Source: Acidimicrobiales bacterium (lineage in GTDB: Bacteria > Actinomycetota > Acidimicrobiia > Acidimicrobiales > DATDAH01). Taken from it: a DNA stretch of 64,000 bases. The notes under the pieces were generated by a model. That model was not told where the DNA came from. It saw only the letters and a list, made by a program, of their open reading frames with translations, and did no database searches. The stretch lies in the NCBI GenBank assembly GCA_016794585.1, contig JAEUJM010000001.1, forward strand, positions 186,001 to 250,000, given 5' to 3'. A program made the position numbers and the translations under genes. The stretch's first letter is position 1, and each line of letters begins with the position of its first letter. Positions 49,165-55,353 of the stretch are shown one piece after another.

Positions 49165-50862
49165 GTGGAGGATCCGGAGCCCCTCGTCGGGCGAGTCATC
49201 GGCACCGAGGACGCCACGCCGCTCGAATTCTGGGTCGGCGTCGGCCCCGACGCCTTCCTGCAGCTCGACGACGTCGTCGCCCTCGAGCGCACCGATCTGC
49301 CCGGGCGCGAGCCGGTGAAGATCTACGGCGTCGTGGGTCAGGTGCGGGCACGCCACGAGGGCGCCCGCTTCGACAGCGACGTCTGGCTCATCGAGGACGG
49401 CGTCCTGCCGGCCGAGGTGAGCGAGGCCGCGCAGGTGCAGGCCACCCGGTTCGAGCCCGAGGTCTTCGTCCCGCCCCTGCCCGGCCAGGCCGTCCGGCGA
49501 GCGTCGGGGGCCGAGCGCGACCAGGCCCTTTTCTTCGACGGCATGACCAAGCGCCTGCCCGCCGGGCTCACCCGCGACGACGAGCCGCTGTACGTCAACC
49601 TCGAGTTCCTCGACGGCACCCGGGGCGCCCACGTCAACATCAGCGGCATCAGCGGGGTGGCCACCAAGACCACCTACGCCACCTTCCTGCTCTACAGCCT
49701 GTTCCACTCGGGGGCGCTCGGCGTCGACGCGGTCAACACCAAGGCGCTGATCTTCAACGTGAAGGGCGAGGACCTGCTCTTCCTCGACCATCCCAACACG
49801 ATGCTGCGCTCCGAGGACCACGACCGCTACACGAAGCTGGGCCTCACGCCGGGGCCCTTCACCAGCGTGGACGTCTTCGCCCCGCCCCGCCGCGGCGACC
49901 GCAACGCCGCGCCCGACGTCACCAGCCGCACCGAGGGCGTCACCTCGGTGTTCTGGACCATCGAGCAGTTCTGCACCGAGGAGCTCCTGCCCTTCCTCTT
50001 CGCCGACGCCGAGGACGACCGCCAGCAGTACACGATGGTCGTGCACAACGTCACCCACCGCCTCAAGCAGCACGCCGAGTCGGTCGGCGACGGCGCCGTC
50101 AGCATCGACGGCACCGTGGTGCGCACCTTCCGCGATCTCGTCGAGCTCATCAGCGCCAAGGTCGAGGACGAGGCCGACGGCATGGACTGGGCCGGCCGAG
50201 CCATCGGGCCGGGCACCGTCGGCGCCTTCATCCGCCGCCTCAACGGCGCCATCCGCCACCTCGAGCCGCTCATCCGCGCCGACGTGGCCAACCCCGAGAA
50301 GCACCGGGTGAAGTTCGAGAAGCAGGTCACCGTGGTCGACCTGCACAACCTCAACGACCGGGCCAAGCGCTTCGTGGTGGGCGTGGTGCTGCGCAAGGCC
50401 TTCGAGGAGAAAGAGCGCGCCGGCCAGGCCAAGCCGCTCCAGTTCGTGGTGCTCGACGAGCTGAACAAGTACGCCCCGCGCGAGGGCGCCAGCCCCATCA
50501 AGGAGATCCTCCTCGACGTGGCCGAGCGGGGCCGATCGCTCGGCATCATCCTCATCGGGGCCCAGCAGACCGCCAGCGAGGTCGAGCGCCGCATCGTGGC
50601 CAACTCGGCCATCCGCGTGGTGGGTCGCCTCGACGCCGCCGAGGCGACCCGGGGCGAGTACGGCTTCCTGCCCCAGGTGCAGCGTCAGCGGGCCACCATC
50701 ATCAAGCCCGGCACCATGCTGTTGTCCCAGCCCGAGATCCCGGTGCCCCTCATGGTGCAGTTCCCCTTCCCGGCCTGGGCCACCCGGGCGGCCGAGGCCG
50801 GCGCCAACCCGTCGGCCACCGAGCACCCCGACGACGTCTTCTCGACGTTCCCCAAGCTGTGA
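49165..50862 (+). CDS. herA: HerA-like DNA translocase ATPase
   Basis: 565 residues from GTG 49165; TAGGTT lies 6 nt upstream. An N-terminal HAS-barrel-like domain (GRVIGTEDATPLEFWVGV) precedes a RecA-fold ATPase. The P-loop is unusual: HVNISGISGVATKTTYA (about 156-172) has T in place of the common G before K. The Walker B block is LQFVVLDELNKYAP (about 425-438), followed by ILIGAQQTASEVERRIVANS. HerA hexamers pump DNA through NurA during end resection in archaea. It is the first of four genes with the Mre11 and Rad50 homologues and NurA. Confidence 0.75.
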   Translation: MEDPEPLVGRVIGTEDATPLEFWVGVGPDAFLQLDDVVALERTDLPGREPVKIYGVVGQVRARHEGARFDSDVWLIEDGVLPAEVSEAAQVQATRFEPEVFVPPLPGQAVRRASGAERDQALFFDGMTKRLPAGLTRDDEPLYVNLEFLDGTRGAHVNISGISGVATKTTYATFLLYSLFHSGALGVDAVNTKALIFNVKGEDLLFLDHPNTMLRSEDHDRYTKLGLTPGPFTSVDVFAPPRRGDRNAAPDVTSRTEGVTSVFWTIEQFCTEELLPFLFADAEDDRQQYTMVVHNVTHRLKQHAESVGDGAVSIDGTVVRTFRDLVELISAKVEDEADGMDWAGRAIGPGTVGAFIRRLNGAIRHLEPLIRADVANPEKHRVKFEKQVTVVDLHNLNDRAKRFVVGVVLRKAFEEKERAGQAKPLQFVVLDELNKYAPREGASPIKEILLDVAERGRSLGIILIGAQQTASEVERRIVANSAIRVVGRLDAAEATRGEYGFLPQVQRQRATIIKPGTMLLSQPEIPVPLMVQFPFPAWATRAAEAGANPSATEHPDDVFSTFPKL

Positions 50863-50869
50863 GGTCGGC

Positions 50870-52009
50870 GTGAAGATCCTGCACACGTCCGACTGGCACG
50901 TCGGCAAGACCATCCGCGGCCGCAGCCGGGCCGACGAGCACGAGGCCGTCCTCGCCGAGATCGTGGGCATCGCCGACGCGGAGGCCGTCGACCTGGTGCT
51001 CGTGGCGGGCGACCTCTTCGACAGCGCCGCCCCGCCACCCGACGCCGAGCAGATCGTGTACCGCACCCTGCTCGAGCTGACCGGAGGCGGTGAGCGCCCC
51101 GTGGTCGTGATCGCCGGCAACCACGACAACGCCCGTCGCTTCGCCGCTGTGGCTCCCCTCCTCGCCGGGGTCGGGGTGCAAGTGGTGCCCATGCTCACCG
51201 GGCCCGAGGACGGCGGCGTCATCGACGTCGAGGCCGGCGGCCAGACGGCGCGGCTCGCGGTCGTGCCGTTCCCCAGCCAGCGCTACATCGTCACCGCGTC
51301 GGACCTCATGGACCTCGACGCCGACGAGCACGGCGGTCGCTACGCCGAGCGGGTCCGACGGGCCATCGACGTGCTCACCGCCGGGTTCGGCGACGACACC
51401 GTCAACCTCCTGGTGGCCCACCTCATGGTGGTCGGTGGCCTCGCCGGTGGCGGCGAGCGCACCGCCCACCTCTTCGACGACTACAGCGTCCCGGCCACCG
51501 CCTTCCCGTCGAGCACCCACTACGTCGCCCTCGGCCACCTGCACCGCCAGCAGTCCCTGCCCGGCCCCTGCCCGGCCTGGTACTGCGGGTCCCCCCTCCA
51601 GCTCGACTTCGGCGAGACCCGCGACGACAAGGCGGTGCTCGTCGTCGAGGCCGCGCCGGGCCGGCCCGCCGAAGTGCGCTCGGTCCCGCTCACGGCGGGA
51701 CGGCGCCTGCGCACCCTCGAGGGCAGCCTCGTCGCGCTGCAGGCCCTCGTGGGCACCACCGGCGACGACCACCTGCGCGTGCGGGTCGACGAGCCCGCTC
51801 GTCCCGGCCTCGCCGACGAGGTGCGCGCGCTGTTCCCCGACGCGGTCGAGGTGGCCGTCGTGCGCCCCGAGGTCGAGCGCCGGGAGCGGGCCGAACGGGC
51901 CGGCAAGTCGCCCCAGGAGCTGTTCGACGTCTACCTCGCCGAGCGGGACGAGTCCGACCCGGGTCTCTCGGCCCTGTTCGCCGAGCTCCTCGAGCAGGCC
52001 ACCGACTGA
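50870..52009 (+). CDS. sbcD: SbcD / Mre11-type exonuclease
   Basis: 379 residues from GTG 50870, 7 nt after the herA stop. Calcineurin-like phosphoesterase: MKILHTSDWHVGKTI, VLVAGDLFDSAAP, VVIAGNHDNARRF and YVALGHLHRQQ carry the metal-binding His and Asp residues. The capping domain and C-terminal SbcD tail (YLAERDESDPGLSALFAELLEQATD) are present. With SbcC it cuts DNA ends and hairpins. Overlaps SbcC (TGATG). Confidence 0.92.
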   Translation: MKILHTSDWHVGKTIRGRSRADEHEAVLAEIVGIADAEAVDLVLVAGDLFDSAAPPPDAEQIVYRTLLELTGGGERPVVVIAGNHDNARRFAAVAPLLAGVGVQVVPMLTGPEDGGVIDVEAGGQTARLAVVPFPSQRYIVTASDLMDLDADEHGGRYAERVRRAIDVLTAGFGDDTVNLLVAHLMVVGGLAGGGERTAHLFDDYSVPATAFPSSTHYVALGHLHRQQSLPGPCPAWYCGSPLQLDFGETRDDKAVLVVEAAPGRPAEVRSVPLTAGRRLRTLEGSLVALQALVGTTGDDHLRVRVDEPARPGLADEVRALFPDAVEVAVVRPEVERRERAERAGKSPQELFDVYLAERDESDPGLSALFAELLEQATD

Positions 52010-54417: not shown

Positions 54418-54429
54418 GCGAGGAGCACC

Positions 54430-55353
54430 GTGCGGTTCGCGATCGAGGGGTGGGCCCCGGAGTACGGCGCGCCCCTCGACCCAGGGGCGCTGGCCGAGCC
54501 CGCCACGCCCGCCGATCTCGGCGTGGAGGTGCCCGTCGAGGAGTGGGCGCCCCGCCCGCCGGCGCCCGACACGGCGCCGCCCGCCTCGGTGCTCTTCGTG
54601 GACGGTGTGCGCCGCATCGACGCCCGGGTGTGGGTCACCGCCGACGACGGTCGAGTGCACCAGGGCATCTGCGCCTCCTACGCGTCGGGAGCCGTGCGCT
54701 CCGACGGGCGAGCGTCCCTCGTGCACCACCGCGTCGAGCGCGGCCTGTTCTGTCCCGCCCGGGAGGCCGAGCCGGTGGTCACCCGCCACGCCACCTTCCC
54801 GTTGCGGCCCGTCGCCGGCGACGACCTCGAGCAGCTGTCGCTCTCGCTCCAGCGCTGCATGGGCGACCTCGAGGCAGAGGTGGCCACCGAGGTGGCCGGG
54901 GGCGCCGACCTCGTGGTGATCGACGGCCCCCTCAGGCACGGCGGCGCCCTTCCCGCCGCGGTGGGCTACATCAAGACCCACCACGTCAGCTACCTGCCGG
55001 TCGAGCTCGACCAGGTGGTCGGCGCGCTGCGCCCTGGCGAGCGCACGCCCCTCTTCGTCACCACCAGCCTGCGTTGGTCCCGCTACTCGTGGTACCTCCG
55101 CCTCCCCGGGGCCGCGGGCCACCCATGGGCCGGGGTGGTCCGGTGCGAGGTGGCCGGCGAGGGCACTGTCGCCGACGCGGCCGCGGTGGCGGACCAGGTG
55201 GCGGCCACGCTGCCGCGCTTCGCGTCCCAGGCCCACAAGGACCCCCGCGCCCCGCAGAACCTGCACCCCATCGCCGGCCTCGAGCGAGAGCTCCGCCGGC
55301 GCCTCGGCGACCCCGCCCTGATCTACCGCGGCCTGCGGCTCGCGGCGGGCTAG
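54430..55353 (+). CDS. nurA: NurA-like nuclease
   Basis: 307 residues from GTG 54430, 12 nt after SbcC with GGAG upstream. NurA signatures: SVLFVDGVRRIDARVW (Asp58, motif I of the 5'-3' nuclease), LVVIDGPLRHGG (second acidic motif, about 160-171) and GYIKTHHVSYL (lysine motif). Sequence identity to known NurA cannot be measured here, so the call rests on motifs and the herA-mre11-rad50 context. It would resect DNA ends driven by HerA. Its stop overlaps the stop of the convergent gene. Confidence 0.62.
   Translation: MRFAIEGWAPEYGAPLDPGALAEPATPADLGVEVPVEEWAPRPPAPDTAPPASVLFVDGVRRIDARVWVTADDGRVHQGICASYASGAVRSDGRASLVHHRVERGLFCPAREAEPVVTRHATFPLRPVAGDDLEQLSLSLQRCMGDLEAEVATEVAGGADLVVIDGPLRHGGALPAAVGYIKTHHVSYLPVELDQVVGALRPGERTPLFVTTSLRWSRYSWYLRLPGAAGHPWAGVVRCEVAGEGTVADAAAVADQVAATLPRFASQAHKDPRAPQNLHPIAGLERELRRRLGDPALIYRGLRLAAG

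Follow-up and report, generated by a model that had tools for sequence, protein, structure and literature searches.

In Deinococcus radiodurans, the translocase HerA and the nuclease NurA form a complex of solved structure (PDB 7f6d, 7wrw), and the pair generates 3' tails (PMC9960219). Their genes make up a two-gene nurA-herA operon that lies apart from those for Mre11 and Rad50 (PMC8708640), and cooperation of HerA-NurA with SbcCD was left open for this organism (PMC4663267). In the archaeal herA-mre11-rad50-nurA operon of Sulfolobus and Thermococcales the four functions stand together, and Sulfolobus HerA contacts Mre11-Rad50 (PMC2288612). A bacterial cluster of the same four gene families, nurA-hepA(herA)-sbcD-sbcC, was reported in 2017 from a single genome, that of Oceanithermus profundus, with nurA first and without functional study (PMC5448004). 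Here we describe a herA-sbcD-sbcC-nurA cassette in an Acidimicrobiales bacterium, found in a 64,000-nt stretch of contig JAEUJM010000001.1 (hereafter the window), in which herA and nurA enclose sbcD-sbcC. Protein profiles were taken from Pfam, NCBIfam and PADLOC, and structural relatives from the PDB.

Four bacterial-type proteins with intact catalytic sites

The cassette comprises four genes on the plus strand. The first, herA (49165-50862; 565 amino acids, aa), encodes a HerA/FtsK-family hexameric DNA translocase of the Deinococcus type, and is followed by sbcD (50870-52009; 379 aa), encoding an Mre11-type nuclease, sbcC (52009-54417; 802 aa), encoding a Rad50-type ABC ATPase, and nurA (54430-55353; 307 aa), encoding a NurA-family nuclease. 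Junctions are tight: 7 nt separate herA from sbcD, sbcD and sbcC share one base (TGATG), and 12 nt separate sbcC from nurA. The initial annotation had given this layout and all four identities, and both are borne out, the latter by profile and sequence matches. We infer that the genes are co-transcribed, with the 341 nt upstream of herA (48824-49164, plus strand) as the presumed promoter site. A pattern search of the window returned no exact match to a LexA-type box, and, with two mismatches allowed, hits are frequent throughout.

HerA is approximately 53% identical to D. radiodurans HerA (PDB 7f6d; phmmer E 3e-151), aligns with it along the length of the N-terminal region, where a NurA-docking HAS barrel would be expected, and shares its unusual Walker A motif, ISGVATKT. 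When the PDB was searched with a cassette HerA profile, the Deinococcus protein came up at E 2e-250, whereas archaeal HerA chains were absent from the matches with E of 0.01 or better. Pfam gives no match to the protein, and its NCBIfam matches all stay below threshold; with the archaeal HerA model NF040937 it scores 15.3 bits against a cut-off of 800. Its active-site residues, namely Walker A K168/T169, catalytic D203, Walker B D431/E432 and the arginine finger R457, are invariant in 90 of 90 relatives. Structure and mutagenesis singled out K175, D487/E488, D220, K217, R513, R495 and R552 in D. radiodurans HerA (PMC9960219), with the Walker A and B residues, R495 and R552 proving necessary in mutants, and the aligned counterparts here are K168, D431/E432, D203, K200, R457, R439 and R496. 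Apart from R496, each of these is fully or almost fully kept across 90 HerA sequences. The position of R439 holds arginine in 87/90 relatives, and R496, as read from alignments, is absent solely in one divergent copy (G002).

The 307-residue protein passes the Pfam NurA model PF09376 (28.2 bits, cut-off 21) over its C-terminal half only and has no NCBIfam match, while sequence searches connect it to D. radiodurans NurA (E 5e-27) and TM1739. An AlphaFold model built from 46 window and locus sequences (pLDDT 91.7) predicts the RNase H-like NurA fold that had been suspected for this protein, with Z scores of 25.1 to TM1739 (1zup), 23.8 to D. radiodurans NurA (7f6d), 15.1 to Sulfolobus NurA (2ygk) and approximately 12 to other NurA entries (3tai etc.). 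The catalytic residues D58, E148, D165, K182 and R273, together with W8, are invariant or nearly so in relatives: D58 and K182 occur in 66/66 and R273 in 65/66, with one gap, and W8 was assessed in a 46-row alignment. D58, K182 and R273 align with D53, K201 and R309 of D. radiodurans NurA, which were named along with W8 and shown to be necessary by mutagenesis of those three (PMC9960219). The basic patches of D. radiodurans NurA that contact HerA are kept at 3/4 and 2/3 positions, as read from alignments. The Pfam model is too insensitive for surveys, giving the window protein 28 bits and missing a copy (G033) that a protein search recovered.

SbcD scores 199.8 bits with TIGR00619 (cut-off 77.65), and the motifs bearing its metal ligands (D8, H10, D48, N84, H184, H223 and H225) and catalytic H85 are invariant in 83/83 relatives. 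SbcC matches PF13476 and PF13558; its best NCBIfam model is TIGR00618, at 271 bits, below the full-length cut-off of 478.5 for this short protein. Walker A K38, the signature LSGGE (704-708) and Walker B D741/E742 are kept in 72-73 of 73 relatives. All 73 have a CPxC zinc hook, which in the window sequence reads CPVC (residues 391-394; 53179-53190, plus strand) and lies halfway between both head domains. The coiled coil had been described as short and archaeal-like. By length it is short (802 aa for the protein, compared with about 1043 in the sbcc model and 872-888 in archaeal Rad50 models), but the head domains score far higher with bacterial SbcC than with archaeal Rad50. Likewise, the best PDB match of SbcD is E. 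coli SbcD (118 bits, versus 46 for the best archaeal Mre11 entry), and that of SbcC is E. coli SbcC (146 bits, with archaeal Rad50 far lower).

Gene content and order are archaeal-like, the order being that listed for S. islandicus, and the biochemistry presumably is too, but the proteins are of bacterial type, and for each of the four the nearest relatives recovered by sequence comparison are bacterial. As a statement of ancestry, the term archaeal-style in the initial annotation is therefore not supported. A recent transfer of the whole operon from an archaeon would account for a gene set that equals the archaeal operon, with herA, mre11, rad50 and nurA in one operon in the S. islandicus papers (PMC4351679). 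Against this stand the nearest families of all four proteins, which are bacterial, including the HerA profile search and the E. coli matches above, and a composition that is not foreign: GC content at third codon positions (GC3) is 0.95-0.97 in all four genes, as in most neighbouring genes tested, and so bears no mark of recent foreign origin. We consider such a transfer highly improbable. The order shared with archaea may reflect either ancient exchange or convergence.

Recurrence and joint inheritance

Scanning GTDB with the HerA alignment yielded 489 confirmed relatives. Only the 80 best were retained, which biases the sample towards close relatives. The herA-sbcD-sbcC-nurA order is complete in 56 of these best 80 loci, in independent genomes. 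Both tests set out in the initial annotation, on the NurA fold and on recurrence in relatives, therefore came out in its favour. Nineteen of the 24 incomplete loci are cut by contig ends, as read from coordinates; in the five exceptions (L047, L052, L074, L087 and L101) the next gene is missing within 2-4 kb. Because the cassette is also found in isolates (Glycomyces, Micromonospora and Longispora), it is no binning artefact. More broadly, this HerA type is present in 99/296 sampled genomes of the class, in 69/149 genera, and in 91/396 sampled genomes of the phylum. Given these counts, the finding of all four genes together is not rare, contrary to the view that it is unusual in bacteria; and, since the nearest relatives of all four proteins are bacterial, the set is not a recent archaeal acquisition either.

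Pairwise distances of the four proteins across 58 loci are strongly correlated (Mantel r 0.84-0.92; 0/999 permutations), and r is 0.70-0.84 after removal of Glycomycetales, Micromonosporales and plasmid cassettes. As species history alone yields some correlation, this result supports joint inheritance and is no proof of function. No fifth conserved gene is shared across lineages in the neighbourhood. We rejected such a gene because the insertions found (dihydrolipoamide dehydrogenase type, carbonic anhydrase, PNPOx and PIN) are lineage-specific, and with no other neighbouring gene conserved the four genes constitute the unit. In three loci labelled Gemmatimonadota (L062, L065 and L077), a small open reading frame (ORF) and a PIN-domain gene, toxin-antitoxin-like, are inserted between sbcC and nurA.

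The very high linkage and the correlated divergence of all four genes, together with the HerA-Mre11-Rad50 contact in Sulfolobus (PMC2288612), speak against the view that SbcCD and HerA-NurA are two separate complexes, only co-regulated, that act on different substrates without contact. In favour of that view, nurA-herA lies away from the Mre11/Rad50 genes in D. radiodurans (PMC8708640), and on Euzebya and Thermus plasmids SbcCD has neither herA nor nurA next to it; HerA reportedly stimulates RecJ as well (PMC4663267). On balance we find two unconnected complexes quite unlikely.

In a quick SbcD tree with SH-aLRT support, stand-alone SbcD proteins from the same order group with E. coli SbcD (99) and are separate from cassette SbcD; one genome (G002) carries both kinds. 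E. coli SbcCD shares family, zinc hook and catalytic motifs with the cassette proteins, but is a stand-alone pair with a longer coiled coil. The SbcD of a Euzebya plasmid without herA groups with one cassette copy. Also split from cassette SbcD (97) is the SbcD of clusters in other Actinomycetota (L138 9002-16245, L139 and L140) that unite the four functions as nurA, herA, sbcD and sbcC, with nurA first and a HerA of the Pfam DUF87 type. Given this separate SbcD ancestry, the four functions were probably brought together more than once.

Gene order varies among cassettes. In G002 it is nurA-herA-sbcD-sbcC, as on cyanobacterial and chloroflexotal plasmids, where the chloroflexotal gene upstream of herA is annotated as hypothetical. 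No more than 60 nt after the divergent G002 cassette (L034 7227-15999, G002:C1) comes a gene with a SIR2_2 domain, in a genome that also has a stand-alone SbcCD. A plasmid of Streptomyces sp. BB1-1-1 (NZ_CP134205.1; L149 1-15644) keeps the window order, and there the cassette adjoins TIGR02680/TIGR02678/DUF2397 genes, which we take to be Wadjet-like, and an ImmA/IrrE peptidase gene. ImmA/IrrE also occurs two genes upstream of the Chlorohelix plasmid cassette. Elsewhere, a tight tandem of nurA, a DUF87 HerA-like ATPase gene, a UvrD/PD-(D/E)XK helicase-nuclease gene and a type III-like DNA methyltransferase gene (L142 9066-16774, G168:C1) looks like an undescribed restriction-like system bearing a HerA-NurA module, and the genome of Marinitoga camini virus 1 (KP836355.1; L152) contains an adjacent pair annotated as NurA-like and HerA-like.

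Proposed mechanism and the case for defence

The presence and order of the genes, the folds, the integrity of the catalytic sites, the conserved linkage and the correlated evolution are all direct observations, and with moderate confidence we favour a reading in which the four genes form one operon for a coupled DNA-end processing machine that serves host break repair. In the order of events that we infer, SbcCD, of the Mre11-Rad50 type, would recognise DNA ends, hairpin and protein-blocked ones among them, and open or clip them. A hexamer of HerA would then be loaded and pump the duplex through its pore, feeding it to a NurA dimer docked on the HerA N-terminal barrels. NurA would remove the 5' strand, or both strands, to leave a 3' tail for recombination; 5'-3' exonuclease and single-stranded DNA endonuclease activity with HerA would be expected as a feature of the family. 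The HerA-NurA part of this scheme is modelled on the solved complex, which contains a HerA 53% identical to that of the window, and the putative SbcCD contact on gene linkage here and the Sulfolobus interaction. Break repair is favoured as the role because the surroundings are of a housekeeping kind and the cassette SbcD is the sole SbcD above the family cut-off in 5/6 HerA-positive genomes of the order.

Several points weigh against host break repair by such a machine. The genome already has a tandem AddA/AddB-like helicase-nuclease pair, a further difference from the archaeal operon, so there is no gap in resection to fill. The remaining HerA-positive genomes of the order likewise have paired nuclease domains listed, and on both grounds we rejected the idea that the cassette replaces AddAB. 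The Deinococcus contact patch is only partly kept: of the NurA-docking acidic residues D78/E80/D81, window HerA retains one of three (D78), with E80 replaced by W and D81 by L. In T. kodakarensis, both strands are degraded by HerA-NurA, which has been argued to be non-resecting (PMC12977600, 2026), and in D. radiodurans herA and nurA add little to radiation resistance (PMC4663267). Finally, cassettes occur on plasmids and distribution within the order is patchy, with HerA in 6/40 families, which makes essentiality unlikely; both features would suit an accessory or defence role. A seventh family (G039; L035 9585-10628, G039:C36) holds fused, decayed herA/sbcD/nurA pieces in shifting frames, either a cassette fossil or an assembly fault.

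Defence is the main rival to break repair. In an anti-foreign-DNA system, SbcCD would recognise incoming phage or plasmid DNA by its free or unusual ends, and HerA-NurA would destroy both strands. The patchy, partly plasmid-borne distribution and the existing AddAB-like pair agree with this, as do the TIGR02680/TIGR02678/DUF2397 genes beside the Streptomyces plasmid cassette and the SIR2_2 gene after the G002 version. The fold search with the NurA model also finds the NurA-like subunits of TdpAB (Z 13), an antiviral role has been proposed for T. kodakarensis HerA-NurA (PMC12977600), and other HerA-nuclease pairs act in this way. The surroundings argue otherwise. Matched neighbours in the window (class-I amidotransferase of family C26, DUF6159, DUF2207, AHSA1 and PAP2) belong to housekeeping or unknown families, and no defence family is common to 73 immediate neighbour ORFs of other loci, which were picked by GC3 without a control set; we therefore rejected a defence island. 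DUF6159 adjoins the cassette also in a near relative (L036), a similarity of context that fits vertical inheritance. PADLOC detected no full known anti-phage system, only partial matches to generic ATPase models and none for NurA, and the window neighbourhood contains neither co-factor genes of known anti-phage systems nor a methylase, guide or similar component for telling self from non-self. No cassette HerA relative was confirmed in IMG/VR viral contigs and phage matches are distant, so a viral origin was likewise rejected.

Weighing both sides, we see the anti-foreign-DNA function as possible, if rather unlikely. Doubtful, too, is its fuller form, a self-contained, laterally spread anti-invader system in which SbcCD would sense foreign or unprotected ends for HerA-NurA to degrade. 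If true, this would be a defence built wholly of repair proteins, widespread in Actinomycetota and hidden behind the names 'ATP-binding protein' and 'hypothetical protein'.

A genetic link between HerA-NurA and SbcCD

The bacterial HerA-NurA pair, SbcCD and the four-gene cluster of Oceanithermus are already known. What is new is a recurrent, widespread actinobacterial operon with its own gene order, correlated evolution and plasmid copies. We found no published description of it in the literature searched, and earlier mention of such bacterial operons is possible. Current models miss such proteins, HerA having no Pfam match and NurA no NCBIfam match; on the Streptomyces plasmid they are annotated as 'ATP-binding protein' and 'hypothetical protein'. 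A conserved operon that joins Deinococcus-type HerA-NurA with bacterial SbcCD provides a genetic link between the two, and it is present in Micromonospora and Glycomyces isolates. It is also relevant to the disagreement between break resection (PMC9960219) and destruction of foreign DNA (PMC12977600) as the task of HerA-NurA.

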